The notes beneath the pieces were generated by a model. It saw only the letters and a list, made by a program, of their open reading frames with translations, ran no database searches and had not been told where the DNA came from. 64,000 bases of DNA from Channallabes apus (taxonomy: Eukaryota > Chordata > Actinopteri > Siluriformes > Clariidae), in contig CM060115.1 of the NCBI GenBank assembly GCA_030522415.1, positions 8,715,579-8,779,578 of the forward strand, read 5' to 3'. Positions 1 to 64,000 of this stretch are shown piece after piece. The position numbers were made by a program, and so were the translations under genes. Numbering within the stretch: the first letter of the stretch is position 1; every line of letters begins with the position of its first letter.

Positions 1-112
1 AAAGGCACCAGAACACGTAGTGCACCACAACCTGGTGTGTACAGGCCCCATCAAGCATCAAGCAAAAAAAAATGGCTTCCAAACTCCCCAGACCTCCACC
101 TGATCAGAAATG
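1..112 (+). mobile_element. Tc1-like transposon remnant, internally deleted
   Basis: The first 50 bases match the middle of a common fish Tc1-like transposase gene (region reading AGTGCACCAC). From about 72 the sequence jumps to its C-terminal coding part (CCAAACTCCCCAGACCTCCA, equivalent to PNSPDLNPI). The element enters from outside the window. A copy with the same kind of deletion lies on the minus strand at 56324..56805. Confidence 0.65.
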
Positions 113-272
113 GAGCGTGGGGTAGCTCAGTGGTTAAGGTCAAAGGTCAAATCCAACAACCACCAAGTTGTTCATGTTGGTCGCTTGAGCAAGACTCTTC
201 ACCCTCAACTGCTCAGATGTATAATGAGATAAAAATGGAAGTCGCTCTGGATAAATACCTAAATGTAAAAGG
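113..272 (+). mobile_element. tRNA-derived SINE
   Basis: Begins with a tRNA-like A box (GGGTAGCTCAGTGGTTAAGG). It continues with the family's body (GCTTGAGCAAGACTCTTCAC, CAGATGTATAATGAGATAA) and ends in the tail AAGTCGCTCTGGATAAATAC. The B box is degraded. It belongs to the same family as the fuller copy at 43604..43778. Confidence 0.75.
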
Positions 273-949
273 GAATATGTGCTAGAAAAACAAGTCTGAT
301 CCACAGAGGCCCCAGCACCCAAATCCTGGTGCACAGAACAGCACACTTCCGAAGGCTCTGCGGAGCCACACCAGGGTCTTTGGGACAAAACCTTGGTGGT
401 TTTATTATTAATGGGGGGCCTGGAACCATTTACTTCCCTGATTCTTCAGTTTGTCTCTCTGGTGGACTCGAATAACCTTTTAAAGGTTTCCACAAACAAC
501 AACTTCAGTTTACTTAAACCATTTCCTTTGTAAAGAACTCTACTTTGTAAAAACTGTCACCATTTACTAGCTGCTATTAAACGATACCTTTTGACCTGTA
601 GGTTTAAAAGCAAGCATGTGGCTCCTCATAGACACACAAAGGAACTCCTTTTTTCAAAACTACTATAAACACTTCCTATCCTGCAATAATGAGTTGAAAG
701 ATGCAAGTGAAAAACACAATAAACAATGACTTGGTAATGAAACAGTGGCCCAAATGGATAAAGTTCACGTCAGGACCATCGTTGTTAAGTCCAAGACAAG
801 GAGAAGCCAAGATCAAGTAAAGACCAAGTATTAAGATTGTCAAAACCAAGTCTAAATAAATATGAAAGTGAATCAAGATTCGAGAAATTCCAATTTTTAT
901 GGCTATGTTTGTACTTACATGTAGGTTTTTGGAATTTGGCAGGTGACTT
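273..949. other. No recognised feature
   Basis: AT-rich sequence without a convincing reading frame or splice-bounded exon. Nothing recognised. Confidence 0.5.
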
Positions 950-1108
950 TACCACGAGTGCCTTACGTGGATCTCATTCAACATCTGGCCAAATTGTCCT
1001 TCCTCAGACGCTCCAAGGATGGTAACTTGGTGGTGCTGAGATTTGAACCCATGCCCTTCTGAAAGGTATGCCAACATCCCAACCACTGTCCTGTCCCTGC
1101 CCCCCACT
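950..1108 (-). mobile_element. Degraded SINE, reverse orientation
   Basis: Same family as 18262..18460. The segments GGTAACTTGGTGGTGCTGAG, TTTGAACCCATGCCCTTCTG and CCCAACCACTG align with its reverse-strand body and tRNA head. Diverged and partial. Confidence 0.55.
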
Positions 1109-1891
1109 TCAGCTACTGTAGTTTCTAGAAATATGAATTGCTTTTTGTTACACCTTGTCAAGACCACGTCCATATTTAGTCCATGTCCAATTTATATCCA
1201 ACGTCCAAGTCTGACATTTTTACGTCCAAGAACATGTGCTGTTTTAGGCACGACCAAGTCCATATACAAAACATCTCAAAACTGGACACAAGTCCACTTT
1301 CTGACTCAAGTCCTACAAGTCTAGAACAGAATGAACAAAACATGGATACTTAACATGGAAGAGGTGAACTTAGGTAATCTAAGCAATGACAGGATGGAGG
1401 TGCAGACAGGCGCTAGAACTGGAATCAAAACACACACATGTTGTTCATCACCTTGGAACCTCCAACATGAAGAGGAAAAACCTTGACAGAAGAACAATCT
1501 TAGATTTCCGACTTTGGTTGGCGGATTTTTAACCTGAGTTGATGCTACTGGGACATCAATATAAAGATACCGTACTGTATATACACAAGCTCAAATATTT
1601 CTTTGGTCTTAACGTTACGGAAATCACACATGGATTTACATTCTTTCTCTCTGTGACGTGACAAAGAGCTTGCTGCGCAAATTAAAACAGAGCGGCGACC
1701 ACTGGGTGTCTTTTTAATAACCGTCACCATAAAACACTGCGTAAGTGACAACTCGGAACATGGAAACAATCGACCAGGACAAAACTATAGAGACGAAGGA
1801 CAGCTTCCCTGCCAATAACACTAATTCCTGCACCCAAGACAGCTCGACTGCCGGCAGGCGGGCGTTAATCTAATCTGTGTGTGAGACTTAC

Positions 1892-4136: not shown

Positions 4137-4935
4137 ACCTCCATCCTCACAAACACTACACTACATACCCAATACACCTCCATCCTCACAAACACTACAT
4201 TCCCAACACACCTCCATCTTCACAAACACTACATTCCCAATACACCTCCATCCTCACAAACACTACATTCCCAATACACCTCCATCCTCACAAACACTAC
4301 ATTCCGAATATACCTCCATCCTCACAAACACTACATTCCCAATAGACCTCCATCCTCACAAACACTACATTCCCAATACACCTCCATCCTCACAAACACT
4401 ACATTCCGAATAGACCTCCATCCTCACAAACACTATATTCCCAACACACCTCCATCTTCACAAACACTACATTCCCAATAGACCTCCATCCTCACAAACA
4501 CTACATTCCCAACACACCTCCATCTTCACAAACACTACATTCCCAATAGACCTCCATCCTCACAAACACTACATTCCCAATACACCTCCATCTTCACAAA
4601 CACTACATTCCCAATACACCTCCATCCTCACAAACACTACATTCCCAACACACCTCCATCCTCACAAACACTACATTCCCAACACACCTCCATCCTCACA
4701 AACACTACATTCCCAACACACCTCCATCCTCACAAACACTACATTCCCAACACACCTCCATCTTCACAAACACTACATTCCCAAAACACCTCAATCCTCA
4801 CAAACACTACATTCCCAACACACCTCCATCTTCACAAACACTACATTCCCAATAGACCTCCATCCTCATGAACACTACATTCCCAACCCACCTCCATCCT
4901 CACAAACACTACATTCTCAACACACATCCATCCTC
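4137..4935. repeat. 34-bp minisatellite, about 23 copies
   Basis: Tandem unit TCCATCCTCACAAACACTAC followed by ATTCCCAACACACC. The 34-base spacing was checked directly at 4621 to 4655. Units vary at a few sites (CCTC/CTTC, AATACAC/AACACAC/AATAGAC). Degenerate copies trail to about 5010. Long open frames here are repeat translations, because 34 is not a multiple of three and all frames cycle. Confidence 0.95.
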
Positions 4936-5010
4936 TCAAAACCCAACATTACATTCTAATCACACCAACATTCTCACAAATGTTATATTCCAAAGCCACC
5001 ACTATCTTCA

Positions 5011-5905: not shown

Positions 5906-7500
5906 ACAACAACAACAACAACAACCCAACTACCAGTACATGAATACATACTGTATGACATACATTTTGTTCAAGCAAAAACCAACAATGTGTGGTGGGC
6001 CCTAGAACAGCTTCAATGCACACCGACAAATAGAAAGATTGACCACCATTCTTCCAAAAGATATTCCCTCAAACAGTGTTTTTATGATGGTGGTAGAGAG
6101 TTCTATCTAACACGTCACTATAAATTTACCCAAATTGGTTTGATTGGACTGAGCCACTGGTTTCTCCTTTAATTTGGTTCGCATTTCGAATTTCTCAAAG
6201 CTATGCCCCAGTAAGCTGTGTGATATATACGATACGAAGCAGATTTAAGGCAAGTTGAGTTAATTGCCTCAATATGTCACCGTAATTACAATTGCTGGAG
6301 CATGCCAAGGGCTGAGATGAAATTGTGCTTATTGACTCGCAGTGTCTCGCAGGAGGAAGTCAGGAGGGAATTACTATATGAAAATCCAGTTTGGTTGAGT
6401 ATTACACTTATGTACTTATATACTATGGATGTGTGCCCTATGATGGATTGGCACGCTGTCCGGGGTGTACAGTACCACCCCAAGTCTTTTCCCTCGTGGC
6501 TTTCCAGTGTTTGTAATACAATGTTTTACACCTGGGTATTCGCTCAATTCTGCTATTAAGCTGATCACTGGGGTGTTCAAACTGTGAAACTTATTGGTTA
6601 GATATTCTTAGGACAGATTCAGAAACCAAAGCCATTTCACAAGATCATGAGTTTTTTATGAAAAAATTACTTTCCTGTAACTTTCTGGTTAACACAGTGA
6701 TAAAAAAAGAATTAACGGATTTATTGTGGTCGGTCACGCTTCGACACGATTACCGGCCAGCCTCAAACCGGGAGAGTTTTGTGTAAGATGTGTATGAAGC
6801 TCTGTTTATTATGTGCAAAGAGAGCAATACAGTATTTAAGATTTTGGCCAGGTGCCCTGTGCCATGTACATCCTGTACAATAAAAAAACTAAAGTCATAG
6901 AGGGACGTGGAGACAGACAGAACATAGGAAAAACATTATCATTTTATATTTAGACAAAAGAGTCCCAGCGAGCCACATGCATGAATATTTGACTGGACAC
7001 GGGCTATAGGAAGTACTGTACTACCATATAAGGAATGAGGAAGTGCATCAAGGGGGTTGTTGGGAAAAGTTCACATGAAATCTGAAAACCTTACATACAG
7101 TATATTTAGAGAAATTGTTTATTTGAAAATCTGACAGACAAGACGTTTGAGGATCCTCTAGGTTGGAGTCAAGGTCCCTTGTTGTTATTGCTTTTTCAAG
7201 GAAACAGCATACAAAATCATACCATACAGTATTTTATCTGCATGGCTGTTTCTCAAAAAAACAAAAAACTATGGAAAATCTGGCAAACTAAGTTTTATTT
7301 AACAGTGTGAACAGTACAAGCCAAGTGCCTCTGAAGCTGTAGGAGGTGAAACAATAAATATTTACCTCCTACAGCGTGAGAAGCCCTTTTCCTTGATCGG
7401 TTGATGAAGGATGTACATTTTAAGCAAATTTCATTTTCCAGCCACTATTAAATGACGAATAAAACACAACTGCTTGTACTGTTAAGGGAAACCCAAGAGT
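5906..7500. other. Intron sequence, nothing recognised
   Basis: AT-rich, with scattered TACAGTA/TACTGTA motifs (for example near 5949, 6468, 6829, 7014, 7096 and 7224). No exon or named repeat recognised. Confidence 0.45.
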
Positions 7501-7685: not shown

Positions 7686-9717
7686 TTGAAGATTTCGGGA
7701 GATCCAAATGACGCTGAGACGACATTTGAGTACACAGGGACTTGAGATCATGTCTGTATGACTTGAGACTTGAGTCTGTGATCCAAGCTACTGTGAATGC
7801 GTAGTTATGTACAGTAGAAACAATAAATTAATAGAAGAGGAATGTTAAGCTTTTGATTGCCAGCTTGTGAAGATCTAGTAGGTCTAGTCAACAGATTAAA
7901 CATCTCTGCTTATGTAACCTCGGTCGCACAAGAGTGACAACATGCCACATTGTGTGCTTTCGACGCCAAATATTCTACATTTCGTTCATATGAACACGTT
8001 CATTAAAGAAAGTCTCGCGACCGCAAAGTGTTCCCAGTTAGCAGGGGCCGAATAAATGAGACATCATCGTAAATAAAACCATCATGGCTCAAATTATGTG
8101 CTGTTAGCTTGTAATCACTGAGGTATTTCATGGCTTGCGTGTGTGTTGGTACAACAAGGCACAGATGCCACTACCACCATGCCCAGTCCGGGGTTTGGAA
8201 GACAGGCACGATGTTGCATCTGTGCTGTGTACTCATGAGTTAACGAGATTATTAACGAGAGCTGTGGGAAAAACTCAAGCGTTCGAAAAGAAACACTTCT
8301 GCAAATAATATAAAAGCCCAGCAAATGCACAGTGCACATTTTGTTCTCCTCTTCAAATGCAATTAGGAGTAGCTGTTTTAATGACATGTACTGGATTATA
8401 CAATAGAGTTTAGGTTGAAACTGCCAGCGAAACAGTAGTAAGGCATTAACAATGCTACTTTCTTAAGTTTTTTTTTAATTATTATTATCCTGTATAAAAC
8501 TATACCCAGCACATTAAAGAAGCTGTTTTTTCCTTATTACTTACTGTAGGTTTGTTCATACAGTATGTATACTCTAGCACTCAGTTTTGACCCCTACGGT
8601 CTTCAATGAAGGCGTTTTACAGCGTTTTACAAACTGGGACTTTTGATTGTGCAGAATAACAGAACACAGTTATAAGAGGAAAACCTACCTCTATTTCTCT
8701 ATACTGTATAATCCCCTGCTACACTACTGCACTCATCCCAGCGCATTTTACTAGTGCTTAGATACCATAAAGGTTGAATTTCATTCCCAGTACACCAGAT
8801 CTGGCCTCCCAGGAACTCCTTTAATGGCTCAAATAATGTGGACATGGCATGGAGCGAGGTCAGGACAGTACAGGGGATGTGGTAATAACTCCCAGCTGAG
8901 TCTTGGCAAGTTAAACGTTGATTTTCAAGGATCAGGCTTTAAACTCGCTATGGTGGGCTCCGAGCCACGGATCGTCTTTCGTGAACGTACGGCTGTTACG
9001 AGGCTCATCACCGTACTGTGATTGGAATCCTCATGTAAATGTCAATCGGTTTTACATCTTCATTCATGAGACATTTCATCACTAGTCCCAGGTTGACTTG
9101 AACGTCCCTCCAAAAAAAAAAATATATATATATTTTTGAAATATTCTTCATGCATTAATTATTGTATTACCCACAAACATTTCTAATCAGACCATTCTTT
9201 TCTGATGCAAGATCAAGACTAAGAGTGTGAGGTAAAATCAGATTTTTTTTTTTTAGCCAATCAGATCTTTCTCTCTGGTTATTATAGTAATCCACTAAAT
9301 AGCCAATTAAATGTTAAAGAACACTTACTGGGTGTATTCTTTTACTTTAGCATGGACATCCAGTTTATTATTATTTCAGGAAACTTATTATTATTCATTA
9401 TTATACTGCGTGTTATTATTATAAAGCCATGAGTTGTAATTATTTAGAGGTGTTTAATGTGCAACTTTACTCTGCTAACGAGTTACTAGGGGATGAGCGA
9501 AGGAGGGAAAACGTTCGATCTTGTTTCAGATTTAATAAGTCTACATTCATAATGGAAAATAGATGGATTTTGGTTTTTAATTTAGCGAATACATTTTTTT
9601 TTCATGAGTTATTGTTTTGCCTGTGGGTTCTATGAGGTGCAACTGTGTGTTATTTTACTAAGTCTTTTCTCTTTTCAATTTTTTTGGGGAAAATTCCTGG
9701 ATTTTTGGGGGGGGGAT
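7686..9717. other. Intron sequence, nothing recognised
   Basis: AT-rich with short homopolymers. No exon, known repeat body or RNA gene recognised. Several TACAGTA/TACTGTA motifs are present. Confidence 0.45.
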
Positions 9718-10111: not shown

Positions 10112-11795
10112 TTTCTCTTTTTTTTATATATATACAGTACTGTATATATATAGTGTTATATAGTATAATGAATGCTTGATTGTAAATAACATACTGCATA
10201 TTCAGAGAATAGTGTATATATTATGTATTGAAAATTATTTAATGAAGTGTAATTTATGTAAATAAAGTTTAGTTGCATGAATCTTGGAGGTCACAGAATG
10301 CCCAAAGTTTGAAGACATGGTGTGCTATTGATAGATTTCAGTGTAAACATGGTTGATGAAAGGCTGTAAAAAAGGCTGTCAATTTGTTTATCGGCAAATA
10401 ATGAGGTTGATTATAAACCTAACAAAGGGCATTCAAGGAGATCATAATGTATGGTGACCTCTTCTGCGTGGAGCGTCCTGATGGCATATTTCATCACATA
10501 ATGTAAGTCGATTCACACTAAACTACTGAGAAAACACTTTCACATACTGTATCATGTGGCACAAATGCTCAAATTTAGATTTACTCAACTCGCAGATGCT
10601 CTTTTTTTTGTAGAGCATCTTCCCAGTGAGGTGGGATCACATCCAAGACTTACATGGATAAACCGATGGTTTGGGCCTTCTAGGCCTCTGTGGCTGTTCT
10701 TGAACAGTACAGTATGTTTTTTTGTTGTTTATTTACTTATTTAATATGTGTAAAAACTGAAGCAACCATGAGGTGCGGTGGGTTACACTGTAGTCTCACA
10801 GCACCAGCACTAAATGCTATTATCTAAATTGCTGCTAGGAGTCAACGAGTGTGTGAATATATCTGCACGTTGTGCTGTCATGGCCTGCTGTTTCATGACT
10901 ATCCATTAAATCATATAGATTTTTATTTAGTGCTAATCATTCTCTAATGAGCCAGGGTTTTATAGAAAGGTGCAAAGGAGACGCAACGAGCAACAATATC
11001 GCAATAAAGGCTCTGTAAGCTATTTGTTCTGTACAAAAAAATGAAATAAAAATGATAACAAAGGAGAAAAAGTATAACCTAGTCTATACTTTCAAACTTA
11101 ATATCCTACTTTCTAATTATATGAATAAACACAGTGATATAGTTTATTAATTTATTTAAATTAAAACAATGATCACCATTGGCCTTCATGGTCCCTATTT
11201 TGACTTCAAAGGTTTCTAAATGGATGGATGGATTTGTTTATTTAAACCTTATTCATTGTTAAATAACTACCCAGTATTACGTATATGAATATTTATATAT
11301 TATTGTAAAGAGAGTTGTGGGATTAAATCGTGTATGCAATTTAATCAATCTTTTCTTTTGATTTGATTCAGTTAATTGAATCATTGGGTCACTTTTTTGA
11401 TTGAGAATCGATTGGCACTTTTAGAATTATTTACATTTAATGTTAAATGTATTAAAATTAACATTTTCCTGAAAAAAAAAATTATATCACAGTTCTAGCA
11501 GAAAAAAAAATCACTTTAAATCTGCTCAGAATACTTGTATTTTGCAAGAGTATCACTTCTTCTTTTCTACTGAACTTGTGTATGGAGCAGAAGATCGGCA
11601 GAAAGAAAGAGTATCGCTTTTTATGGGACATGATATTTAACCCACTGAAGTTACACACCATTTCAATACTTTTAAAATGTAATACAGTACCTTAAAGCCT
11701 GTAGTAAATACTGCTGCTTGAGACACATTGGATATTATTGCCATTGAAATGAAGTTGAAAATTGCAACACCCCCCAAAATAGAATTGAATCGAAC
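10112..11795. other. AT-rich intron sequence
   Basis: Long AT tracts and the nested motif TACAGTACTGTA at 10133. A stretch at 11330-11420 with ATTGAATC/GATTCAAT-type motifs may be the edge of an unnamed dispersed repeat. No exon seen. Confidence 0.4.
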
Positions 11796-11799: not shown

Positions 11800-12135
11800 A
11801 GTCGATATAAACAGTTTATTTATATATCTGGATCATTGACCCTTGCACAAGACACTTTAATAAGTCACTTTTTATGCATATTTGCACAACCACTGCCACT
11901 TTCAAATATTTCTATATTTTGTAATATTTTTTATCATGCCCTTATTTGTACAGTATATTTTAATAGTTACATTTTTTTTCATTAGTATTTCTTTTTATTC
12001 ATATTTATTCCTTACGTACACGTTTTTATTTTATTTCTTAAGGTCACTGGCGGTCGTATAAGCATTTCACTGCATTTTGTACCGTGTATGACTGCGTACT
12101 GTATGTGACAAATAAAATTTGAATCTGAATTTGAA
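11800..12135 (+). mobile_element. LINE 3' tail
   Basis: Matches a common teleost retroelement tail: GATCATTGACCCTTGCACAA, then an AT-rich stretch with TTGTACAGTATATTT, GCATTTCACTGCATTTTGTA and GTGACAAATAAAATTTGAAT. The same tail ends the SINE at 35104..35248. Compared with that copy it has 5 extra bases (CTGTA) at 12098-12102. Confidence 0.65.
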
Positions 12136-13696: not shown

Positions 13697-13905
13697 TAGC
13701 GGCACGGTGGCTTAGCGGTTAGCACCGTCGCCTTTCACCCCCACGGTCGGGGTTCAATACCCTCCTCGAGTCTGTAAGCACTGGTTTGCATGTTCTTCAT
13801 ATGCTCTACTGTTTTCCGCTGGGTACTCTGTACTACCTCCTTCTACCACTGTCCAAAGTAAATGCAGGTACTGTAAGGGGAATTAGCTTTCTCAAATTTC
13901 CCGTA
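13697..13905 (+). mobile_element. tRNA-derived SINE
   Basis: A box in GCGGCACGGTGGCTTAGCGG then TTAGCACCGTCGCC. B box in GGTCGGGGTTCAATACCC. The body has TTTGCATGTTCTTCATATGC and CGCTGGGTACTCTG. Typical of the fish SINE class whose consensus has GGTTCGAATCCC and TTTCCTCCGGGTACTCC. Confidence 0.75.
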
Positions 13906-13925: not shown

Positions 13926-15059
13926 CATCGAGCTAGCAACCTGACCCCTAAAGTAATTGCCAAAGGAACGACGGATATATCTCCAGGGTGGAAGTATTCA
14001 TCACCCAATGCGCCAGAGGGCAAATGGACATACCAAAGACACAAAAGGGTAAATGAACACTGTAGAACTGATGGGCTATGAAGATGGTGGACAATTCTAT
14101 GGTATTGATGTGATGGACATTTCTGTGGTATGGAGGTGATGGACATTTCTGTAGTATGGAGGTGATGGACATTTATGTAGTAATGGGTGTGAAGGACATT
14201 TCTATGGTATAGAGATGATGGACATTTCTATAGTATGGAGGTGATGGACATTTCTATAGTATGGAGGTGATGGACATTTATGTGGTATGAAGATGATGGA
14301 CATTTCTGTGGTATGGAGATGATGGACATTTCTACAGTATGGAGCTGATGGACATTTATGTGGTATGGAGGTGATGGACATTTATGTGGTAATGGAGGTT
14401 ATGGATATTTCTGTGGTATGGAGATGATGGACATTTCTATAGTATGGAGGTGATGGACATTTCTATAGTACGGAGGTGATTGACATTTCTATAATATGGA
14501 GGTGATGGACATTTCTGTGGTAATGGAGGTGATGGACATTTCTGTGGTATGAAGATGATGGACATTTCTGTGGTATGGAGATGATGGACATTTCTGTGGT
14601 ATGAACCTGGTAAAAAATTCCTTAGATATGGATCTGATAAACATGTTTATGGTTATTTGATGGGCATTTCGGTGGTGCTAAAGGACTTTTCTGTTGCATG
14701 GAGCTTGTGAACATTTATATACAGTACTATGCAGTTAGAAGACATTTCTAAGGTACGGCGCTAGTGGACATTTCTAATTTTGGGGGGATGATGGACATTT
14801 CTGTGGCACGGAGCTGATGTGCATTTGTTAGATATGGATCTAATGAACATTTTATGGTTATATGATGGACATTTCTGTTGGATGGAGCTGATGGACATTT
14901 CTCATCACTGGCCATCACAGCCGTACAGCTGTTTTTTTTTTTTTCTTCTTCTTCTTCTTTTTAAGCCTCAAAGTTACTGAGCTGAAGGATGTCTCTGTAT
15001 CTGTTCTCTGTTATTCACAGAAGCATTAAGTGTCTAAAGCTGGAATGGGGGAAAAAAAA
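13926..15059. repeat. Large tandem duplication, copy 1, with 26-bp minisatellite core
   Basis: Starts CATCGAGCTAGCAACCTGAC, leads through a unique 170-bp segment into a 26-bp minisatellite (GATGGACATTTCTGTGGTAT+GGAGAT), then a unique tail ending CTAAAGCTGGAATGGGGGAA. The whole block recurs immediately downstream. Lead and tail differ from copy 2 at only a few bases, so the duplication is younger than the minisatellite. Confidence 0.9.
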
Positions 15060-16564
15060 CATCGAGCTAGCAACCTGATCCCTAAAGTAATTGCCAAAGG
15101 AACGACGGATATATCTCCAGGGTGGAAGTATTCATCACCCAATGCACCAGAGGGCAAATGGACATACCAAAGACACAAAAGGGTAAATGAACACTGTAGA
15201 ACTGATGGGGTATGAAGATGGTGGACAATTCTATGGTATTGATGTGATGGACATTTCTGTGGTATGGAGGTGATGGACATTTCTGCAATATGGAGGTGAT
15301 GGACATTTATGTAGTAATGGGGGTGAAGGACATTTCTGTGGTATGGAGGTGATGGACATTTATGTAGTAATGGGGGTGAAGGACATTTCTGTGGTATGGA
15401 GGTGATGGACATTTATGTAGTAATGGGGGTGAAGGACATTTCTGTGGTATGGAGGTGATGGACATTTATGTAGTAATGGGGGTGAAGGACATTTCTGTGG
15501 TATGGAGGTGATGGACATTTATGTAGTAATGGGGGTGATGGACATTCCTGTGGTAATGGGGGTGATGGATATTTCTATGGTATAGAGATGATGGACATTT
15601 CTATAGTATGGAGGTGATGGACATTTATGTGGTATGGAGGTGATGGACATTTATGTGGTATGGAGATGATGGACATTTCTATAGTATGGAGGTGATGGAC
15701 ATTTATGTGGTATGGAGGTGATGGACATTTATGTGGTAATGGAGGTTATGGATATTTCTGTGGTATGGAGATGATGGACATTTCTATAGTATGGAGGTGA
15801 TGGACATTTCTATAGTATGGAGGTGATGGACATTTCTATAGTATGGAGGTGACGGACATTTCTATGGTATGGAGATGATGGAAATTTCTGTGGTATGGAG
15901 ATGATGGACATTTCTATGGTATGGAGATGATGGACATTTCTGTGGTATGGAGATGATGGACATTTCTGTGGTATGGAGATGATGGACATTTCTATGGTAT
16001 GGAGATGATGGAAATTTCTGTGGTATGGAGATGATGGAAATTTCTGTGGTATGGAGATGATGGACATTTCTGTGGTATGGAGATGATGGACATTTCTGTG
16101 GTATGGAGATGATGGACATTTCTGTGGTATGGAGATGATGGACATTTCTGTGGTATGGAGATGATGGACATTTCTGTGGTATGAACCTGGTAAAAAATTC
16201 CTTAGATATGGATCTGATAAACATGTTTATGGTTATTTGATGGGCATTTCGGTGGTGCTAAAGGACTTTTCTGTTGCATGGAGCTTGTGAACATTTATAT
16301 ATAGAACTATGCAGTTTGAAGACATTTCTAAGGTACGGCGCTAGTGGACATTTCTAATTTTGGGGGGATGATGGACATTTCTGTGGGATGGAGCTGATGG
16401 ACATTTCTCATCACTGGCCATCACAGCCGTACAGCTGCTTTGTTTTTTTTCTTCTTCTTCTTCTTTTTAAGCCTCAAAGTTACTGAGCTGAAGGATGTCT
16501 CTGTATCTGTTCTCTGTTATTCACAGAAGCATTAAGTGTCTAAAGCTGGAATGGGGAAAAAAAA
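15060..16564. repeat. Large tandem duplication, copy 2, expanded minisatellite core
   Basis: Same lead and tail as 13926..15059, but about 370 bp longer because the 26-bp core has expanded. Its 15900-16180 part is highly homogeneous, and at 15310-15540 a compound unit of about 57 bp (two subunits) repeats. Long minus-strand frames here (SIISIPQKCPSSPYHRN-like) are repeat translations, not genes. Confidence 0.9.
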
Positions 16565-18261: not shown

Positions 18262-18460
18262 TACATTTAGGCATTTGGCAGATGCTCTTATCCAGAGCGA
18301 CTTACATTTTTTATCTCATTACACATCTGAGCAGTTTAGGGTTAAGGGCCTTGCTCAAGGGCCCAACAGTGGCAACTTGGTGACTTTGTGGGGTTTGAAC
18401 CTGGGATCTTCCGAACCGTAGTCCAATGCCTTAACCACTGAGCTACCCCTGGCCCATTTC
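18262..18460 (-). mobile_element. tRNA-derived SINE, near complete, reverse orientation
   Basis: The plus strand shows the tail first (TTTGGCAGATGCTCTTATCC, AGAGCGACTTACA), then CTTGCTCAAGGGCCCAACAG and GGTTTGAACCTGGGATCTTC (B box). It ends with CCTTAACCACTGAGCTACCC (A box complement). One of the best-preserved SINE copies here. Confidence 0.85.
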
Positions 18461-19194: not shown

Positions 19195-20999
19195 TCATCG
19201 GAGAACTTCCGCACCCACTCTATTCGCCAGGTAATGATGAAGTAATATTAATAATAATAAGTAATAAAGTACATAATTGTAAACAAAGCTAAAAATTCTT
19301 ATAAACACTAGTGGAATAAACCCTGGTGCTGGGGGAGTCCCCTGTCCTGCTTAGCGTAGTGTTTTCTCAGCACCAGCACCTTATTAAACTAATCAACTAA
19401 TTAAGAGCCTTTTCTGAATTGAAGTGGGTGTGACAGAGCACTTAAACACTTAAATGTGCAAGACAGGGGAGTCCTCCAGGACCAGAGTTGAGAACCGCAG
19501 GAATAAACAAAGTGAGACTGAATCTGAAGATTAATTTCATGCTAAGCAGCATGGCATGTGATCTAAATTCGCTACCATTTCTCGTGAATAAAATGTCTTT
19601 TTTTTTTCCCTTGTCTCCTTCGTAGCTGAACACAGGGGGGGGTTGTTGTGCTCTTACTCCATCAACTGTACGACGCTAACCAAAAACGATCACAGGAACA
19701 GAGCAGACGCGAGGCACGGGTGAGAAACACAGTCTGACACCATGGCTCGAAAATACTAATCAGCACCGTGATCTCCTGCAACGAACACTGCCAATTTACA
19801 CACACATATATACACGCACACAGACACCTGGGACTTTGAGCTTGTGACTCAGTGTGTGTTTGTAGCTGTGGCATTTTACACTGCAGTCACACAGCCAGCT
19901 TAAGGTCATTGAGGAATGCACAGAGAGAGAGAGAGAGAGAGAGAAATCCGAACAAAGCCTGGGTCCTAAACAGTAAATATTGCTTGTAACATTTTTTCAC
20001 CACGCAGTCATCAAAATCACATTTTCTCTGTAGCTAAATCTCTAACGGCGCTCTAGGAAGTGTGTAATGGAAAATTATTCCTGTGTGATGGAAACTTTTA
20101 TATATATCTGATATCGCCTGTGAAAGTGAAATCAAATCAAAATATAAGCGGAAAACAACGGGAAAGAATATCTGATATCGTCTCCATTGCTTTTGAATAG
20201 ACTTATTAATGCTCTAAACTAAAATTATTCTATTCGAATACTTCACGCGCACAAAAACACACAGGAGCGTCTACCTGGGAGGGAATGCTACAGCACGGTA
20301 CTCACTAAAATGAATCCTCACAACTGCTCTGAATTACAGAATAACGCTAATATGATTTGAAAAAAAATATATTCTGCTCTGCCGAGCGACAGTACTTGGT
20401 CTCTCCTCTGCTTACTTTTCGAAGGGGGGGGGGAAAAACATCACCAGGAGAGCCAGACTTTTTCGTAAATGCGCCCTCCGAATGCAGGGGTACAGCCGTA
20501 CTCTTGACAGGGGCCGAGCCGTACTTGGCCCCTGAACAGCAGAGCGGCTTGGCTGCCTGCATACTGAATGGCGCAACATCAGAATAAAGAGACTTCTCAC
20601 ACAGCTGTGTAAGGAACAAATTCTGATGCAATATATGCGACTTGGGAATGCTCACTTCACCCCGGAATGCGCACCAGATAGGAATACTGATCTACTAGGC
20701 TCAGCTGTCCCTCCCCGAAACAATTATACTGTCATAATGCGCGATATTCATGCTTCAATATTCATGCTACAATAATAATTCCGCTGTAAAAGCAATCCCA
20801 TGTTCATAACAATTATACTGGTACAGCAAGTACAGTCTTTGTAGTACTTGTAAAAGCAGTAGGTTGTGTAAAGGGATTGCACTAGTAAAACATCATAACA
20901 AATTACACAATAATACTGTAATAAAAATATATTATTCAAAGCGGTAGCACTTTTATAACTGTCATACTGATGCAAACTGTTAACGCAATCACTCCATTT
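19195..20999. other. Intron sequence, largely unrecognised
   Basis: (GA)n at 19921-19944. The 20380-20600 stretch is GC-rich compared with its flanks, with a small inverted repeat (GGGGCC..GGCCCC, 20511-20535). It could be part of an unnamed mobile element, but I could not define ends. No exon recognised. Confidence 0.4.
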
Positions 21000-22935
21000 C
21001 AATCCTATACACTAATGTTACAGTACTCACAATAATCAACACTATAAAAGTAATCAAACTATTCCATACTGTTACAGTGCTCACTAATTTATTTCTGTTA
21101 CAATAACCAGACTATTCCATACTGTTACAGTAATTATACTAATGACTGCTGTAACACTACTCATTAATCACATTAATAGTAATACTAATAGTCCTCACAA
21201 TATTTCATACAATACCAATAATCACACTAATACATACTGTTACAGTACTCACACCAATTAATACTGTTAAAATAATCACACTATTCCATACTGTTACAGT
21301 AAGTACACTAATCCCTACTGTTATAGTCCTCACACTAAATATAATCTTAAAATAATCACACTATTCCATAATGTTACAGCAATAACAGTAATCCCTACTG
21401 TTACTCTATTGTTACAGTACTCACAATAACCTGTAATGGTACAGTACTCACAATAATTAATAATAGTAAAATAATTATACTATTCCATACTGTTACAGCA
21501 GTTACACTAATTCCTACTGCTACATTAATCATACAAATCAATTTTGTTACCGTTATCACACTAAATGCATACAGTTACAGTACTTACATTAATAAATACT
21601 GTTACAGTAATCACACTAACAAATACTGTTACAGTACTCACAGTGATAAATACTGATACAGTACTCACAGTGATAAATACTGTTACAGTATATACAGAAT
21701 TTAATAATGTTACAGTAATCACACTAACAAATACTGTTACAGTATTCACAGTAATAAATAATGTTACAGTACGTACAGTATTAAATATGTTACAGTACTC
21801 ACAGTAATAAATAATGTTACAGTACTCACAGTGATAAATATGGTCACAGTACTCACAGTAATAAATATGTTACAGTACGTACAGTATTAAATATGTTACA
21901 GTACTCACAGTAATAAATAATGTTACAGTACGTACAGTATTAAATATGTTACAGTACTCACAGTAATAAATAATGTTACTGTAATCACACTAACAAATAC
22001 TGTTACAGTATTCACAGTAATAAATAATGTTACAGTACGTACAGTATTAAATATGTTACTGTAATCACACTAACAAATACTGTTACAGTACTCACAGTAA
22101 TAAATATGTTACAGTACGTACAGTATTAAATATGTTACAGTACGTACAGTAATAAATATGTTACAGTACTCACAGTAATAAATATGTTACAGTACTCACA
22201 GTAATAAATATGTTACAGTACGTACAGTATTAAATACTGTTACAGTACTCACAGTAATAAATAATGTTACAGTACGTACAGTATTAAATACTGTTACAGT
22301 ATTCACAGTAATAAATAATGTTACAGTACGTACAGTATTAAATATGGTCACAGTACTCACAGTAATAAATAATGTTACTGTAATCACACTAACAAATACT
22401 GTTACAGTACTCACAGTAATAAATAATGTTACAGTACGTACAGTATTAAATACTGTTACAGTACTCACAGTAATAAATAATGTTACAGTACGTACAGTAT
22501 TAAATATGTTACAGTACTCACAGTAATAAATACTGTTACAGTACGTACAGTATTAAATATGTTACAGTACTCACAGTAATAAATACTGTTACAGTACTCA
22601 CAGTAATAAATACTGTCACATTACACACAGTAGTAACTATTGTTACAGTACTCACACTAACAAATACTGATACAGTACTCACAGTAATAAATACTGTTAC
22701 GGTACTCACAGTAATAAATACTGTTACGGTATTCACAGTAATAAATAATGTTACAGTACTCACAGTAATAAATACTGTTACATTACGTACAGTATTAAAT
22801 ATGTTACAGTACTCACAGTAATAAATACTGTTACACTACTCACTATAATAAATACAGTCACAGTATTTCACACAGCAGATATTGCTACAGTAATCACACA
22901 TATACAGTAGATACTGCTACAGTAATCACACTGTT
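21000..22935. repeat. 26/27-bp minisatellite built on GTTACAGTACTCACAGTAAT
   Basis: Tandem array with two main unit types: GTTACAGTACTCACAGTAAT+AAATACT (27) and GTTACAGTACGTACAGTATT+AAATAT (26). It is degenerate at 21000-21560 and regular from 21560 to 22830. Each unit carries one or two copies of the ACAGTA core, which is over-represented in the whole window. Long frames in both directions (TVTVFITVS-like) are repeat translations. Confidence 0.95.
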
Positions 22936-24178: not shown

Positions 24179-25194
24179 TGTGCCAAACAAAAAAATAAAC
24201 ACATTAAGAAAATTTAAATACTGTAGTGTTAATCATGATGAATATATAAGTATATTAGTATAACCAAAGTATATTATAATAAGTAATTAATTATACTATT
24301 ATGATATTATTATTGCTATAAATTATATATGTATATATGTAATATAAATGTATACATATACAAGTTTTTCTTTTCCTTAAATGAACATTATATATACTGT
24401 ATACAGTATATATACAGTATATATTAAGGTTTACTGTATATAATAAAATTTTTCTGTTTAATTTTGCAAATTCGTGCCAATATACTACACCATGTTTTTC
24501 CGGTTTCGACCATCTCGCTAATGTACAGTATCCTTTTCTTGTGTTGCCTTATTGTTGGATGATTATTGCCCTTACTGTGTCTGCACACGGCCTCTCCAAT
24601 GATTTGTTTTCTGCAGCCTGTTTCAACTAAGCCTTACTGTTGAGCCTGGGAAGTTCTGGATCTCAGTGTCTAGTCTTCATTTCATCCTCGAATAACCTGC
24701 ATAATGAACCATGATAGAATCGAGCTCTCCACTCTACTTTGTGACCTCACATATTGAGCAGGAACGCTAAAACTGGCTTGTTTTAAATGGAACTGTAAGT
24801 TTAGCAAAGTAGAAACAAATCTGTAGCCAAACACCAATCTACAGGTATTTAATTGGTTTAATTGGAGTCCATCTATTGATGAGGAGATACCTCCGGGGTT
24901 TTGAAGTTCACTTTTAAGTCTGTTCAATTTGGAAGGTATATTCTTTCTTTACATACAGTAGGGGCATTTTGATCCACAAATAAGGACTGTTCCAATCAAC
25001 TGGATGACAGCTGAACTTTAACAAAACCAATGGATGTACTGTATAATAGAGCATGAACATCCAACAATTGTCACTCAAAGGAACATATTTGAGCAAGTTT
25101 GAGCATATAGTATTTACAAATGTATGTAGAAATTGTCTTTTATACAATTTATAGATGGCAAAGTGTTTGCAGTTAACTTTAGTCAAGCAATTGG
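23984..25194. other. AT-rich intron sequence with microsatellites
   Basis: (TAA)n at 24110-24132, (AT)n then (AG)n at 24148-24178, and a dense cluster of TACAGTA/TACTGTA between 24145 and 24440. No exon seen. Confidence 0.5.
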
Positions 25195-27570: not shown

Positions 27571-27852
27571 TAAAAGCATCAGTTTGAGCGCAGTCTGAGC
27601 AGAGCCACGCATTGTTTTTTTCTTTTTCGCATGCATTTTAACAATTTTGCTCACTAACTGTGTGCACAGAGACGCCAAGACACTTAAGTGTACAACATAA
27701 CTGATGCACCCATATACAGTTTATAACTGAACAGATTGCACTTAACTACCGGATGGAAATACACCAAATCACTCTTACAGACATTCACACGTGAGCATGC
27801 ATGCTCGGGGGCTTGTCATTATAAAATGGCTTATCAAAAAATATCTTATATA

Positions 27853-28393
27853 TAGGTATTCCTCGACTTACGAACGATTTACGGTCCTTTCCAGGAGCAT
27901 GTTCATAAGTCTGATTTGTTCTTAAGTACAACGGAATGAGTCTTATACGCCTTTGACACGAATATACAGTACAACGTGAAGCATAGCGACCCACTTGAGT
28001 AAACCTGTCCCTTTCCCCACACTGCCACCATGTGGTCAAAAAGGAAAATGATCTCACACATCAAATGTAAGTGTTGTCTCTGCTCGCGAGGACGCCATTT
28101 TGTCTCAGAGCTGATGCATTAAAACTAGTGACGAAGAATCATTTCTCCCACACCCCCCCACGCACACACAAATACAATATGCTGGACAGTGGACATTTCA
28201 GACATTCACTTACACACTGTATACATATTGCATGTAACTGTACATATTGGTATCTGGTCCACTGCAGTGTGTTTTTTTTTTCTTCTTACAATAAACATGA
28301 GCTACTTCCGTGATCGAACCAGAAGTAGAACCGCAGTTCGTTCGTATCTGTGGAAATACATAACTCGAATGTTCGTAAGTCTGGGACTACCTG
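27853..28393. mobile_element. 541-bp TA-flanked MITE of Tc1/mariner type
   Basis: Imperfect terminal inverted repeats: left TAGGTATTCCTCGACTTACG, right (reverse complement) CAGGTAGTCCCAGACTTACG, with TA on both sides (27851-27852 and 28394-28395). No transposase frame. Its outermost bases are CAG/CTG at the better-preserved end, the terminus expected to leave TACAGTA or TACTGTA on excision. Confidence 0.75.
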
Positions 28394-28965
28394 TATTTGT
28401 TTTCCCCATGACTTTACCAAGTCTGAATCCTTGATTTTGTGATTTTTCAAGGATTTTCAAACCTGTTATAAACAGGATGCTTTAAGAGTAATTAAGAATA
28501 AAAATAATTTTGATTTGGAAATACCTCAAGACCCGGTGTTACCGTTTTAACAAACCTTAATAACCCGTGAACGATTCTGGCAATCTTAGAATAGAATACT
28601 GTACGAATAGCACCTCATACTCCGGATCAGCTGGATTAATCCCTTTTTTTATTCGTGTAGCACTTTGCACAAGAAGCAGCTTTACAAAAATTAGAATTTA
28701 GATTTAGATCTTTAATAAGCAAGCAAAATGATAAAAAGAAAGGAAAAAAAAAACTCTTTGAGAAAACATGAGGAACAAGGGAAATGGCAACCGATCCACT
28801 TCTGGCGGAGGATTATAAGTTATTACAGGGTTTCACATGTAATACTTCCTTCAGTAAGGGTGGATTAGCAAGACGTGAGCCAGCAAGTTTAAATTGCCTT
28901 TTCGGAATGCATTTTGTGTGCGTGTTTCCTTCTATGTAGTCCAGAGCGATGTAGATCCCCATTTA
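28394..28965. other. Intron sequence, nothing recognised
   Basis: AT-rich, no exon or known repeat seen. Confidence 0.5.
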
Positions 28966-32531: not shown

Positions 32532-32850
32532 GGGTAAGAAGGGAAGCCCATGAAGAGATGCATCCATCATGCATAGTGGTCACTGTACAAGCCTCTGGAG
32601 GCCGTGTCACAGTATGATCTGGGGTTGCTTTTCTTGGTCAGGTCTAGGCTCAGCAACATTACATGGCAACAAAATGAAGTCAGCTGATGACCTGAATGTA
32701 CGGAATGACCAGGTTATCAAATGCATTGAGTTTTTCTTCCCTCATGGCACCGCAATATTCCAGGACTACAATTGTGAAAGAGTGGTTCGTGGGCGTGAGG
32801 AATCATTTCACACAAGAATCGGTCACCATATTGTGCTCCATGATTAAAGT
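32532..32850 (+). pseudogene. Tc1-like transposase fragment
   Basis: Contains CCATCATGCATAGTGGTCAC, AAGCCTCTGGAGGCCGTGTC and ATCTGGGGTTGCTTTTCTTG, which read as the family's VxASGGxVxxWGCFSW motif in the catalytic core. Then comes a broken C-terminal portion with TTCCAGGACTACAATTGTG (equivalent to FQQDNxxxH, here degraded). Frameshifted and without termini. Same family as 48735..49390 and 61850..62330. Confidence 0.75.
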
Positions 32851-35248: not shown

Positions 35249-35735
35249 GTAAAGCTTAAAATGTAACTTCTGCTTTGGTTTGTTTTCGTTATATTTTTGA
35301 TGTTTTCGCTGAAAGTCAAATTGGCATAACAAATTGATTAATGGCGCATAATATCTGGAACAAATATCTGTCCATACGGATCAGTGTGTCTTTAGTCATT
35401 TAACCAGCATAATGTCCCACATTAAAGATCTGATGGGGCATCAATCACTTATCACAACGGTGTATAGATGCAGCAGCAGAGACAGATTTAATCCCCATAA
35501 ACATTCACACTTGAAAACAAAACTAACAGAAGTAAACAGTTCTAGAGTGTTAGTGCCTGTTATCACAGGACAGGAATCACCTACAGGATACTACTGTATT
35601 TTACTGCTCATATTTTTTTACCCTAGTTTCATTTGGTTTTATGCGATTTCATGTATTATTTGTGTGTGTCTGTGTGTGTACAGTGTGTGTGTGTGTGTGT
35701 GTGTGTGAGTGCGAGAGACAGCGTGAGAGCGCGTG
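35246..35735. repeat. Internal duplication of the hAT, copy B
   Basis: Second copy of 34660..35075, starting exactly where the SINE tail ends. Divergence between the copies is moderate, and its (GT)n tract (35681-35708) has expanded. Confidence 0.85.
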
Positions 35736-37761: not shown

Positions 37762-37934
37762 TGTTAACCAGTGAACAGTGTTAGTGTTAACCAGTGAACA
37801 GTGTTAGTGTTAACCAGTGAACAGTGTTAGTGTTAACCAGTGAACAGTGTTAGTGTTAACCAGTGAACAGTGTTAGTGTTAACCAGTGAACAGTGTTAGT
37901 GTTAACCAGTGAACAGTGTTAGTGTTAACCAGTG
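37762..37934. repeat. 23-bp minisatellite, 7.5 near-perfect copies
   Basis: Unit GTTAACCAGTGAACAGTGTT+AGT repeated without spacers and almost without variation. It lies between the two putative exons in the hAT. The homogeneity implies recent expansion. Confidence 0.95.
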
Positions 37935-38667
37935 ACTGTCTGTATTATCGTCTGCATTAAATTAACCGGGAATTTACTTAATGCGCTTCTCATACAAATA
38001 AGTTAAGCGATATAACACTCGTATATGAGCATTAGTTCATCCCTGAAGCCAAACTATAACTTACTGAAGCCCCTCACACACACACACACACACACCTCCC
38101 CCCTCCTCCTCCTCCACTGATAAACACTTCTGTGTTGTTATTCAGCTCGTTAACTAAGCGCTCGCGCTACCGCGGAAAGTGTATAAAATATAAACCGGGT
38201 TATGAGCGTTACTAGCTCCTGTACAGCTCCCCTCAGTCTGTGTCCCTCATCAACTGCATCACATTATATTACAGTCACAGAAATAACCTGCAGATTAACT
38301 CTTAACCAGAGAATAAATAAGCGCTGAATTGATCCAGACAACACGCGGTGAGATTCTCTCAGTATTTACAGAGAACACAAACACTCTTCATCGGGTAGTG
38401 CAGCTCTTGTAATAGGGACATTAATAGTATTGTCGAAGCTTGAGCATGTTTTTGAGTTAAAGTGGAGTGACATTGTGAGTGTGTGACACTGACAGTAAGC
38501 TGTAATATTAACTCCACACTTGGTAAACAGAACATTAAGTTCTCTAAAGTCACATCTGACCGCTGCTGCTGCTGCCAGTGATATTTAAAACAGCCAATAA
38601 AAAACTAAACTGGGAAATAAACTGTAAACTACCCCAAACACATTTTATAAAATAAAACATCACTTAC

Positions 38668-43603: not shown

Positions 43604-43778
43604 GGGTAGCACGGTGGTTAAGGCATTGGACTACAGTTTAGAAGATCCCAGGTTCAAATCCCATGACCACACTGTTGGGCCCTTGAGCAAGGCCCTCAAT
43701 TTCTCAGATGTATAATGAGATAACAATGTAAGTCGCTCTGGATAAGGGCGTCTGCCAAATGCCTAAATGTAATGTAAG
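43604..43778 (+). mobile_element. tRNA-derived SINE, complete
   Basis: A box GGGTAGCACGGTGGTTAAGG, B box CCAGGTTCAAATCCCATGAC, body TTGGGCCCTTGAGCAAGGCC, tail AAGTCGCTCTGGATAAGGGC then GTCTGCCAAATGCC. Best full copy of the family here; it sits within or beside the mariner remnant. Confidence 0.9.
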
Positions 43779-58799: not shown

Positions 58800-59500
58800 C
58801 CAGTTCATTTTCAGCCACCATGTATAGTACAGTACAGTATATCCGCTTTAAATAATTACCCAAAGCTGATACATATAAATTTGGCCCCAATACATATAAA
58901 CGATATACAGTATGTGAATTTGAAAAACCTTATTTTAGAAGCTTTACACATCCACCTTTTTGAGCAAAACATTCTATATAACTTTGCTAGACTTCTTGCT
59001 TCATTTGAGAAAAAAAAAACCCCTGCAAAAATGGATTTATCTCATTTTGCCATCAAAGTATTAACATGCATTACGTGTTTAACATTCTTGTTTTGCTGTT
59101 GCACTTTCAGTCAAACCTTTACTGCCACATAGAAGCGTAAAATAAAACGGACAGCAGACCTACAGTAACATGTAACGTCATACAGTAGCACTTTTTACAG
59201 CCAAAAGTAAACATCGACTAAATGTTCACGTTTCCAACATACAGTAAGTGAATACTTAAAACTTAATGAATGCTTACTCACTTCCTCCCTCACTGCTGAA
59301 TTCAAAACAGGGCTAAAGGTCACAGCAGCTGATTTTATTGGCGTGCCTCGTGCTGTCTAATTGAGTCTCTGGGGCGATAATGGAAAAAGGAAGACTGGAG
59401 GATCCTGAGAGAGCGGATGCGCAAAAAGGGCAACAGTGATAAGATAGACACTGCAGAAAATTACAGAATGAGACGATTGCAAGACGATTTAGTTTCACTC
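58800..59500. other. AT-rich intron sequence
   Basis: Several TACAGTA motifs, including the nested TACAGTACAGTA at 58828. No exon or named repeat. Confidence 0.5.
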
Positions 59501-61060: not shown

Positions 61061-61845
61061 TCTTCATTAAAACCGAAATATTAACTTCCTCATCGTTTTA
61101 TTTACTTGGTTTTGCTACATTTGCTTTTTCTCCCTATCCAATGGGATTGGGACAGGGCCCAGGCAGTTGCAGTGCACCATATTGTGTTAGGTACGAAACC
61201 TGCCATGGGCCGCATGATGTGTGTATACAGTATGTGTGTGAGCTTGTGTCTACAGTATACAGTATGAATGCGTGTTGGCTCTAGCACACGTATCCTGCCT
61301 CTCCATCACTTTCACATTAAAGCCTGAACAGTGTGTGTATGTGTGGACGGCCCTAATATATGTGTTTAAAGCTTCCAAATGGAGATTGTCCATTAGTAGA
61401 AAAAAGGCACTGCAGTACTAAAAAAAAAAAAAAAAAGCCAACCCCTTTAAAACTTTGTACTTTGCTTTTGTATTCACAGACATGAAAGCGAACTCTTCAA
61501 ACCTGCAGGCGTGTGGGAGATGCTTTCAGGTTGGTTGAGAGGTTTTGAAATTTCAATATGGCTCTCAGCCTCGGTGTTTCACACAGCATGGAGCGATACG
61601 CACCTCGGAGACACGCTCATTTATTCCCAGTAGATGGACCGAGCTACTGTACAGTAGATGCGGCCGCAGGATGCAGAGCTCCGTAGGTTGCGTTTCACTG
61701 GATTTATTCTTGGCACTCGAGTGACGTAACACAAATGTATCCAAAAAAAAAAAATAAAGTCTTTAGTGTTCATTGTTTCTTCATGAACCTAGAACCACTC
61801 TCTTTTACGATTTGAGTCCTGTAATATTGCCGTGCCTAATAGAAA
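61061..61845. other. Intron sequence, nothing recognised
   Basis: A cluster of TACAGTA/TACTGTA at 61226-61265 and 61645-61656 (TACTGTACAGTA). A runs at 61420-61435. No exon seen. Confidence 0.5.
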
Positions 61846-61849
61846 AACT

Positions 61850-62330
61850 CCATAGATGTGATAACCTGGTCATTCAATACATTCAGTTTGTCAGCTGACT
61901 TCATTTTATTGCAACAGTGTCTAGACCTGAGCAACTTAAGCAACCCCAGATTATAACACTGTCTCCAGGGACTTGTACAGTGGACACTATGCATGAAGGG
62001 TTAATCGCTTCATGTGCGTTCATTCTTACCCTGACACGCCCATCGCTCTGGTAAACGCTCATTCTGGACTCATTTCACCACTTGACCTTTTTCCAATAAT
62101 GTCTAATCTTTATTCTCCTTAGCAAACCTAAGCTTTTTCTCTTATTAGTCTCACTAACAAGTGGTTTTCTTAAAGCCACACAGCTGGTTAGTCTCCATCC
62201 TGTGAGTTCATCACATTGTGTGTGTGGAAATGTTCTTACTTTCACTATTGAACACAGCACTGATTTCTGTTATTTTTTATGATGCAACTTCACCAAACGT
62301 TTAAGTGATCTCTGATCACTGAACCCTGTC
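61850..62330 (-). pseudogene. Tc1-like transposase pseudogene, reverse orientation
   Basis: The minus-strand frame at 62075-62260 reads LTGWRLTSCVALRKPLVSET and RRIKIRHYWKKVKW, matching the Tc1 segment before the first catalytic aspartate (SxRVARRKPxLSxxNxxxR...WxxVxW). Below 62075 the core continues, frameshifted (AAGCAACCCCAGATTATAAC on the plus strand, equivalent to WGCL). Same family as 32532..32850 and 48735..49390; this is the longest open copy. Confidence 0.8.
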
Positions 62331-64000
62331 GTTAACTATATTAGGTTAGTAAAAACCAAAATGCAACTTTCACCACCAGTATAAAGTATATTATATTTTC
62401 TCTAATGCTTGTGGTTCTGAAATATCTACAATCCAAGCTGTTTCGCTAATTATTCCCAGGCACGACGTGATCGTTACGACTGTAGCTGAGCTAGGATCAT
62501 TATTTCCATCTTAATCTAACATAATTATCAGAAAGACGATAAGGGGAAACGCGGTGTCAATAAGAGCATCGTGTAATTAACAGATTTTGCAAGTCAGTAT
62601 CGCATCTGTATCTATAAGGGCGTGAGTTCAAATCCCTGGTGCGGCTCAGCTCTTAAACTGCTGAGCTCTGCAGGAAAACCTTAGCTTCACCTTTAAGTCT
62701 CTTTGAATAAAGCCATCCGAGTAAGAAAAATGCATATAAATGTGAATAAGCAAGAGGAGGTGAAGAAAAAGATAAAAAAAACAACTTCTTTTCTGCGCAC
62801 GACAACAGAAATTACAGTCGATCCGGAATCAGCTATAACCTGTCATTTTTACCTTTACGATTTCCAAGGTGAAAGAAACCTGGCCTGCTGAATAAGCAAG
62901 CTGTATCTAATGCAACAAACCTCGATTATTTACTTATTTATTTATTTGAACACGCATTACACTGTGCGAATTACATTAACATATTCTGCCTTGTGTTCCG
63001 ACTTGTATTCGCATCAGTGGTGGAAAGATTTGACTTTCAAATCACACCAGTGGAGAAGCAGACAAATTTTTTTTTTTTTTTTATTCTTCTCAAGAACACA
63101 GAACAAGAGATGAAACCAGACAGCTGAAGACTGATTTTACAGACTGTAAGGAGTCAAAGACTTCAGCTTCGGCAATGATGCTGATTTGGGCTATCAGTGA
63201 TTAATCATTAATCAATTAATTGGAATTAATTTAACCAACTAAAGGATTATCAACTGATAATATTTGTTTTGCATGCTATTTCTCTGTTGTTCACATATTT
63301 ATTACATTATGCACCATAAGAGGGCGCACTTCCAGTTCAGACAGTACAGTATATAGAATTGGATATTGTATTTTAAAATGAGGACAAAGAGGTGAACAAC
63401 CTTATTATTCTTTAAAAAAAATAATTAAATTCTGTTTCTTTACATTTTTTTTACCTTTATTAAATTGTCTCATATAGCAAATTTTTGGGATTGTGCCACT
63501 AAGGCAACTCTAATTTAAACAAGAAAAATCCTAGAAGGAAGGCACAGAAAGGATTTTATCTGAAGAAAAAAAAGACCCTAACATATTGTATGTCAGTGAA
63601 CGAGGTGGCTTGTTTCAATTTTTTTAAGGAAAGCGTTAATAGTTCGGTGTGAATTGCTGATAATAATACCTTATAATCACGCCCACTTCAATCCTATTGG
63701 CTTACAACACCATGGCTTGTCAGGAGTGGAACATTTCAGCTGCTGTGGGTTATTCACCTTCATGTACAGTACAGTAAGCTTCGTGTGTTGAGCCCTCTGA
63801 GGTGCTTTTCAGCTCAACACAGAAGTAAAGAGTGCTTATGTAAGTTTCAGTCAGCACAGCACTGGCACTCGCTGCATGTTTTTTGTTAGTTTTTTGCGAC
63901 TCTTGCTTGTGATCCGCACTTAATATTTTTTTTGAAAAGACTAAATTTTGAGAATTTGCCAGAACATGTAAAACCACTCCAGGAAAAAAGACCTCCATCT
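62331..64000. other. Intron sequence with a SINE remnant
   Basis: 62600-62655 (GTGAGTTCAAATCCCTGGTG) resembles a SINE B box. T run at 63067-63082. The nested motif TACAGTACAGTA is at 63765. No exon recognised up to the window end. Confidence 0.45.

Follow-up and report, generated by a model that had tools for sequence, protein, structure and literature searches.

Abundant TACAGTA and TACTGTA words in a catfish genome: probable excision footprints of Tc1-like transposons

Introduction

In mouse tumours in which the experimental transposon Sleeping Beauty (SB) was mobilized, TACAGTA and TACTGTA were the consensus footprints, and more than 300,000 endogenous mouse sites were handled as background (PMC4378557). 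The active zebrafish Tc1/mariner element ZB has the target ATATATAT, which is the published target consensus of both SB and ZB (PMC7913693, PMC3271037), and left footprints of 0-3 bp when measured in human cells (PMC7913693). Passer, a pogo-type element of fish, inserts at TA with a preference for AAGTACTT and leaves footprints of 0-4 bp (PMC9976928), and in the channel catfish Tc1/mariner is the largest class of repeats (PMC5953449). Here we examine the same two 7-mers, TACAGTA and TACTGTA, in a 64,000-nucleotide stretch (hereafter the window) of the genome of the clariid catfish Channallabes apus (assembly GCA_030522415.1, contig CM060115.1).

If elements with CAG...CTG ends produced these words, an element would insert at a TA and duplicate it, its transposase would later cut three bases inside the element ends, and end-joining would keep one 3-base overhang, leaving TA-CAG-TA or TA-CTG-TA with a net gain of 5 bp. 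An earlier note on this DNA proposed that most of the words are Tc1-type excision scars, and the proposal is supported by what we observe directly: the excess of CAG and CTG among triplets in both the window and a genomic sample, flanks with a Tc1 target preference, a 5-bp difference between repeat copies, and equal numbers of CAG and CTG at a single TA. We consider it very probable that most of the 115 words lying outside a satellite in the window are excision footprints of CAG...CTG-ended Tc1-like transposons.

Results

The window contains 176 TACAGTA or TACTGTA words, 115 of them outside the satellite at 21.0-22.9 kb (64 TACAGTA and 51 TACTGTA), where base composition predicts 12.7, i.e., an excess of about ninefold. 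This agrees closely with the earlier tally of about 110 against about 13 by chance, as well as with the remark that both orientations occur. After removal of six tandem arrays and 14 simple repeats, the remaining 56,096 bp held 110 words (60 and 50 in the two orientations, which is roughly equal) against 9.0, 12.9 and 18.5 expected under Markov models of order 1, 2 and 3 (Poisson tail against order 3, 1.7e-47); about 9-18 of these 110 sites are expected to be chance occurrences. By z-score in this masked sequence, the pair was the top 7-mer other than simple repeats at every Markov order from 1 to 3, and the density of words was uneven along the window (chi-square p 0.017).

Whether CAG and CTG exceed the other triplets in TA-NNN-TA had been named in advance by the earlier note as one of two grounds on which the footprint proposal could fail, and they ranked first in both sets of sequence. 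Among the 32 TA-NNN-TA classes, TACAGTA/TACTGTA was the only one strongly enriched in the masked window (8.52-fold over the second-order Markov expectation), with TACTATA/TATAGTA as the runner-up at 2.67-fold. It was also the highest of the 32 classes, with 145 words (3.52-fold over order 2), in a 200-kb sample made up of twenty 10-kb stretches from one fixed coordinate of contigs 1-20, one of them on the window's own contig; the sample was left unmasked, and its 20 most over-represented 7-mers, mostly tandem-repeat words, did not include TACAGTA. Footprints of other lengths were without excess in the window (TACATA 44 against 53.9 expected, TAAGTA 34 against 37.4, TACTA 88 against 93.3). A palindromic binding motif of the form TAC-N-GTA with a free centre was rejected on the 110 words with A or T at the centre vs. 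3 TACCGTA/TACGGTA, although the C/G form is rare anyway (2.6 expected).

The assembly as a whole (1.16 Gb in 93 contigs, with the window at G000:C12:8715579-8779578) contains 979,603 words (489,770 + 489,833) against 260,532 of the reversed word (130,018 + 130,514), the count including satellite copies and transposon ends. At 1.96 words per kb after masking, the window lies above the genome-wide average of 0.84 per kb. Subtraction of the reversed word leaves 0.7 million, a figure in which satellite copies and element ends are still included, and we give about even odds to the view that the genome holds about 0.7 million natural scars, occupying about 0.5-2.7% of TAs where these can be counted, and that excision is a main source of its small insertions.

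The most extensive comparison comes from a dispersed repeat with a site at position 12097. An exact-pattern count across the genome found the corresponding TA empty in 5,366 copies and present as TA-NNN-TA in 115 (2.1% filled); because the empty form is in the majority, it is likely to be ancestral. Among the 100 matches listed of the 115 filled copies, 46 carried CAG, 47 carried CTG, and 7 carried other triplets, six of which are one change from CAG or CTG. Since CAG and CTG are equally frequent at one TA, a single footprint that was captured and then copied cannot explain the pattern; left flanks vary among aligned copies, with filled and empty forms on several backgrounds (as judged by eye). 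A second TA of this repeat is empty in 5,414 copies genome-wide and contains TA-NNN-TA in 40 (18 CAG, 10 CTG, 11 AAG and 1 GTG), and at least two copies (C4:35672341-35672375 and C12:7538879-7538913) have a footprint at both TAs.

To compare insertion with substitution at other sites, copies of dispersed repeats within the same genome took the place of the orthologues of close relatives. The queries were 238 CAG/CTG sites located outside tandem repeats in the window and the 200-kb sample, and a usable copy was available for 19 of them: Eight of the 11 informative sites showed mostly 5-bp gaps and three mostly substitutions, the remaining usable sites offering the same word or other gaps only. 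Control TA-NNN-TA triplets (1,232 sites, 169 with a copy) yielded 7 sites with mostly 5-bp gaps and 84 with substitutions, i.e., 7 of 91 (Fisher p 4e-6 for the difference from 8 of 11). The comparison set took in loci fetched via site 12097 and via Tc1 matches; with site 12097 itself left out, the proportion becomes 7 of 10. Where informative copies exist, most of the words represent 5 bp inserted at what was ancestrally a single TA. At individual sites, the copy of the site at 6468 has a further length difference to the right (alignment scores 66 vs. 65), the copies shown at 13869 read GTTAGG where an emptied site would read GTAAGG, and one sample site (L008:5105) arose by substitution.

No sequence is common to the window sites beyond about 4 bp on either side. 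The immediate flanks are A-Y-R to the left of the word and Y-R-T to the right, a palindromic AT preference. A flank score, devised after inspection of the window flanks and then applied unchanged to the sample, averaged 3.75 at 85 isolated sites vs. 2.66 at 353 other TA-NNN-TA in the window (p 4e-11), and 3.52 at 145 sites vs. 2.72 at 971 others in the sample (p 3.7e-11). In the window, matches to ATATATAT were more numerous at the sites than at other TAs (2.69 vs. 1.98 of 6, p 5e-7). The Passer target AAGTACTT was also tried and rejected (1.82 vs. 1.64 matches of 6, p 0.09), the flanks being without that preference. The target preference thus fits Tc1-like elements better than the pogo-type Passer.

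Seven pairs of sites overlap at a distance of 5, two of them in opposite orientation, against a mean of 3.5 in simulations that include the target preference; this arrangement is the outcome that reinsertion into a scar would give. Words with one mismatch number 241 in the window against 164-177 expected, an excess of 64-77, whereas the excess of intact words is about 100. The flank-based share of decayed sites is 0.19, and its wide interval (-0.09 to 0.45) makes estimates of age loose: The data permit no more than the conclusion that the majority of readable scars are young relative to the decay of a 7-mer. As a word of 7 bp does not persist for long, the record that it provides is short. Under the assumption of a steady state, the roughly 100 excess words in 56 kb would translate into about one scar for every 80 substitutions; for the genome-wide excess the ratio would be about one to 230.

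Tc1-type transposases are abundant in the assembly (150 were scored of 38,815 first-look candidates), many of them with an open frame of 344 codons. One family was examined through five copies of about 1,649 bp, which are about 99% alike, carry inverted repeats some 244 bp in length, and have ends reading TA-CAGTATCTCAC (one end of L023 and one of L024 read CAGTCTCTCAC); one copy, L022, has the 344-codon frame. This family shows that CAG-ended Tc1-like elements, with ends TA-CAGTATC, are resident in the genome, and it is a candidate source only. Twenty end pairs, picked from the first 100 of the 362 places at which its exact 22-base end occurs, share a single flanking sequence apart from small differences; the flank of L022 differs; the element seems to have spread as a passenger inside a larger multi-copy repeat (L055-L094, L021-L025). 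At a neighbouring TA, one of the 20 pairs (L069) shows an additional CAGTA, a point in favour of excision footprints.

Within the window, a search with Tc1 termini found one terminus type convincingly and another as a weak match with 5 errors. A resident 545-bp sequence with inverted ends (Table 1) is possibly a CAG-ended non-autonomous element; its ends are close to the terminus CAGGTAGTCCCCGACTTACGAAC. The decayed Tc1-like fragment at 32554-32844 matches its one named relative, a Tc1-like transposase DDE domain-containing protein of Scleropages formosus, at 68% identity across 55% of the query length. Taken with two UnaL2 tails in the window, this similarity makes a teleost likely, in keeping with the source of the DNA. 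Pfam gave nothing above its cut-off for three Tc1 fragments of the window, and a PDB search with a Tc1 fragment gave no match.

Other features of the window are collected in Table 1. Five minisatellite arrays, each of 0.2-2.1 kb, fall within this one 64-kb stretch. The 27-bp satellite contains the word in its unit, and runs of the 7-mer at steps of about 25 bp are found elsewhere (G000:C1:247718-247869, 248296-248352 and 251614-251841). Rfam recognised nothing in the window besides the tails of two long interspersed nuclear elements (LINEs). No gene was recognised, ten open reading frames giving nothing above the Pfam cut-off and no full gene search having been made; a codon score flagged protein-like stretches. 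Scans of viral-contig and genome-contig collections returned no fish repeats.

Table 1. Features of the 64-kb window (positions are those of the window)
Feature	Position	Strand	Remark
TACAGTA/TACTGTA set	1..64000	both	115 words outside satellite, most of them probable excision footprints
Minisatellite, 34-bp unit	4137-4940		one of five arrays
Site at TA of dispersed repeat	6468..6474	+	plain TA in another window copy; weak support
Site with 5-bp difference	8702..8708	-	5 bp absent in two sampled relatives; third differs by 3 bp
Two overlapping sites, opposite orientation	10133..10144	.	TACAGTACTGTA; inside (TA)n tract
Counter-example	11949..11955	+	copies read TACAGTT or TACTGAG, no gap
Probable footprint inside dispersed repeat	12097..12103	-	TA empty in most copies (see text)
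Site with 5-bp difference	13869..13875	-	5 bp absent in nine sampled copies; repeat-copy alignment
Minisatellite, 26-bp unit	14077-16183		one of five arrays
Counter-example	14333..14339	+	TACAGTA in normal 26-bp unit; substitution
Probable footprint in 26-bp tandem array	14720..14726	+	sole 31-bp interval among 54 ACATTT-to-ACATTT intervals
UnaL2 LINE 3' element	18265-18318	-	Rfam
27-bp satellite	20880..22930	.	unit contains TACTGT-TACAGTA; left out of counts
Cluster of four sites	24395..24438	.	TA-rich DNA
Resident 545-bp sequence, inverted ends	27851..28395	.	ends CAGGTAGTCC and TAGGTATTCC, between TAs
Site with 5-bp difference	27965..27971	+	5 bp absent in one sampled relative; weak alignment
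Decayed Tc1-like transposase fragment	32554..32844	+	protein similarity
Probable counter-example	35592..35598	-	diverged copy near 34979: TAATGTA, equal core length
Minisatellite, 23-bp unit	37755-37935		one of five arrays
Minisatellite, 31-bp unit	41116-42063		one of five arrays
UnaL2 LINE 3' element	43715-43768	+	Rfam
Minisatellite, 31-bp unit	44749-45807		one of five arrays
Same-orientation pair at distance 5	58828..58839	+	TACAGTACAGTA; similar pairs at 55038, 63765, 12405, 26166
Two overlapping sites, opposite orientation	61645..61656	.	TACTGTACAGTA; overlap

Discussion

If most of these words are footprints, a Tc1-like transposase would be the agent, most single-copy sites would share the excision origin seen in repeats, and the excision events would be recent on the scale of neutral 7-mer decay. 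Several points weigh against this account. Three of the 11 informative sites look like substitutions, as do the site at 14333, next to which units of the array read TATAGTA or TGTGGTA, and probably that at 35592; between site 23734 and its copies the difference is 7 bp rather than 5. The 5-bp gaps were accepted without requiring that an exact TA be left behind, two of the eight gap sites share one sampled stretch (L012), and the alignment at 27965 is weak. With the window's own 12097 copy as query, 40 matches were obtained including itself (27 CAG, 2 CTG, 10 shorter by 5 bp and 1 by 7), but this query carried the footprint, and filled copies are hence over-represented among them. At the second TA of that repeat, 12 of the 40 inserts are other than CAG or CTG, 11 being AAG, a group that may represent a derived subfamily. 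Pairs of sites within 25 bp number 18 against 9.7 simulated (maximum 18 in 60 runs), and this excess of close pairs hints at hot spots or local duplication. The exact scar pattern at the shared nested Tc1 insertion site was found at 0 places, and element, footprint and empty forms at the same site were not seen, one nested site having been checked and for the footprint pattern only. Some of the sites are substitutions, and some copies were multiplied inside repeats.

A possible explanation of the words without any excision is that they are the surviving ends of inserted elements: The fetched Tc1 family does end TA-CAGTATCTCACAAAAGTGAG, and since it starts with CAGTA, its intact ends next to a TA also spell TACAGTA. 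However, none of 112 window sites (the 115 minus three in a slightly wider satellite interval) resembles the Tc1 end, only one of 143 sample sites does, and weakly, the genome has 362 exact occurrences of the 22-base end against 979,603 words, and the sites have no conserved sequence in common farther out than about 4 bp. These comparisons, which cover this one family, refute the explanation for the 1,649-bp elements, and we hold it to be highly improbable. We find it harder still to credit that selection maintains TACAGTA for binding or as a microRNA site. A table of Takifugu microRNAs gives TACAGTA as the seed of an isomiR of fru-miR-101b-3p (PMC4469249), TACTGTA is the complement of this seed, and the excess of words one change away is below that of the intact word; against this, the sites occur in both orientations in a window without a recognised gene (within the limits of the search given above), and selection predicts neither 5-bp insertions at TA in repeats nor CAG and CTG in equal numbers.

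Among explanations that retain excision, the footprints might derive from CAG-ended elements of the pogo/Tigger type instead of Tc1-like ones, which we regard as unlikely. The 545-bp sequence at 27851-28395 is resident and has a CAG end, and by eye only its ends resemble Tigger-like ends (PMC4678618), but the flanks of the sites match ATATATAT and not the Passer target, with the proviso that other pogo families may differ from Passer. It is more doubtful still that a few original events were multiplied as repeats copied a captured footprint. Families in which the compared copies are all filled (L006, L016, L019 and L029), the 27-bp satellite and the AAG subgroup at the second TA speak for such copying. 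Yet flanks are not shared by the window sites: Among all pairs separated by more than 80 bp, the best reaches a score of 26 across 67 bp and involves TA-rich sites (the random control for this comparison was unusable, its windows having overlapped). Furthermore, for 219 of the 238 sites from window and sample the sequence searched offers no usable copy, and in the 12097 repeat CAG equals CTG on several backgrounds. Amplification of one flank was rejected, the window sites sharing no flanks.

Tallies of DNA transposons usually rest on the copies still in place. Should the words be scars, departed copies would become countable as well, and a single assembly would suffice to count them by TA, by repeat family and by orientation. 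The number of scars per TA in any repeat family would then serve as a clock of transposase activity, and a vertebrate genome would yield direct measures of its past rate of excision, of the fall in this rate once silencing set in, and of which end-joining product is chosen in the germline. A specific source of 5-bp frameshifting insertions would also be named, and excision would sow miR-101-type seed sites. Scars falling in 3' untranslated regions would create sites of the miR-101b type.

Among described genomes, that of the channel catfish is Tc1-rich like this one; the 'transposon footprints' of that study appear to mean resident Tc1 sequences, and neither TACAGTA nor 'excision' occurs in the searched text of PMC5953449. 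Searches of the openly accessible literature brought up experimental footprints and no report that we recognised as describing a natural genome-wide archive of them. Passer shares the TA target, but its preferred target AAGTACTT is not followed by the flanks here. ZB shares the palindromic AT target, whereas here solely the 3-base form of footprint is in excess. In the mouse, with a genome of 2.7 Gb, the endogenous background amounts to about 0.11 sites per kb, compared with 0.84 genome-wide and 1.96 in the masked window here. The footprints of Sleeping Beauty are the same two sequences as those found here, produced there by an experimental transposon (PMC4378557).

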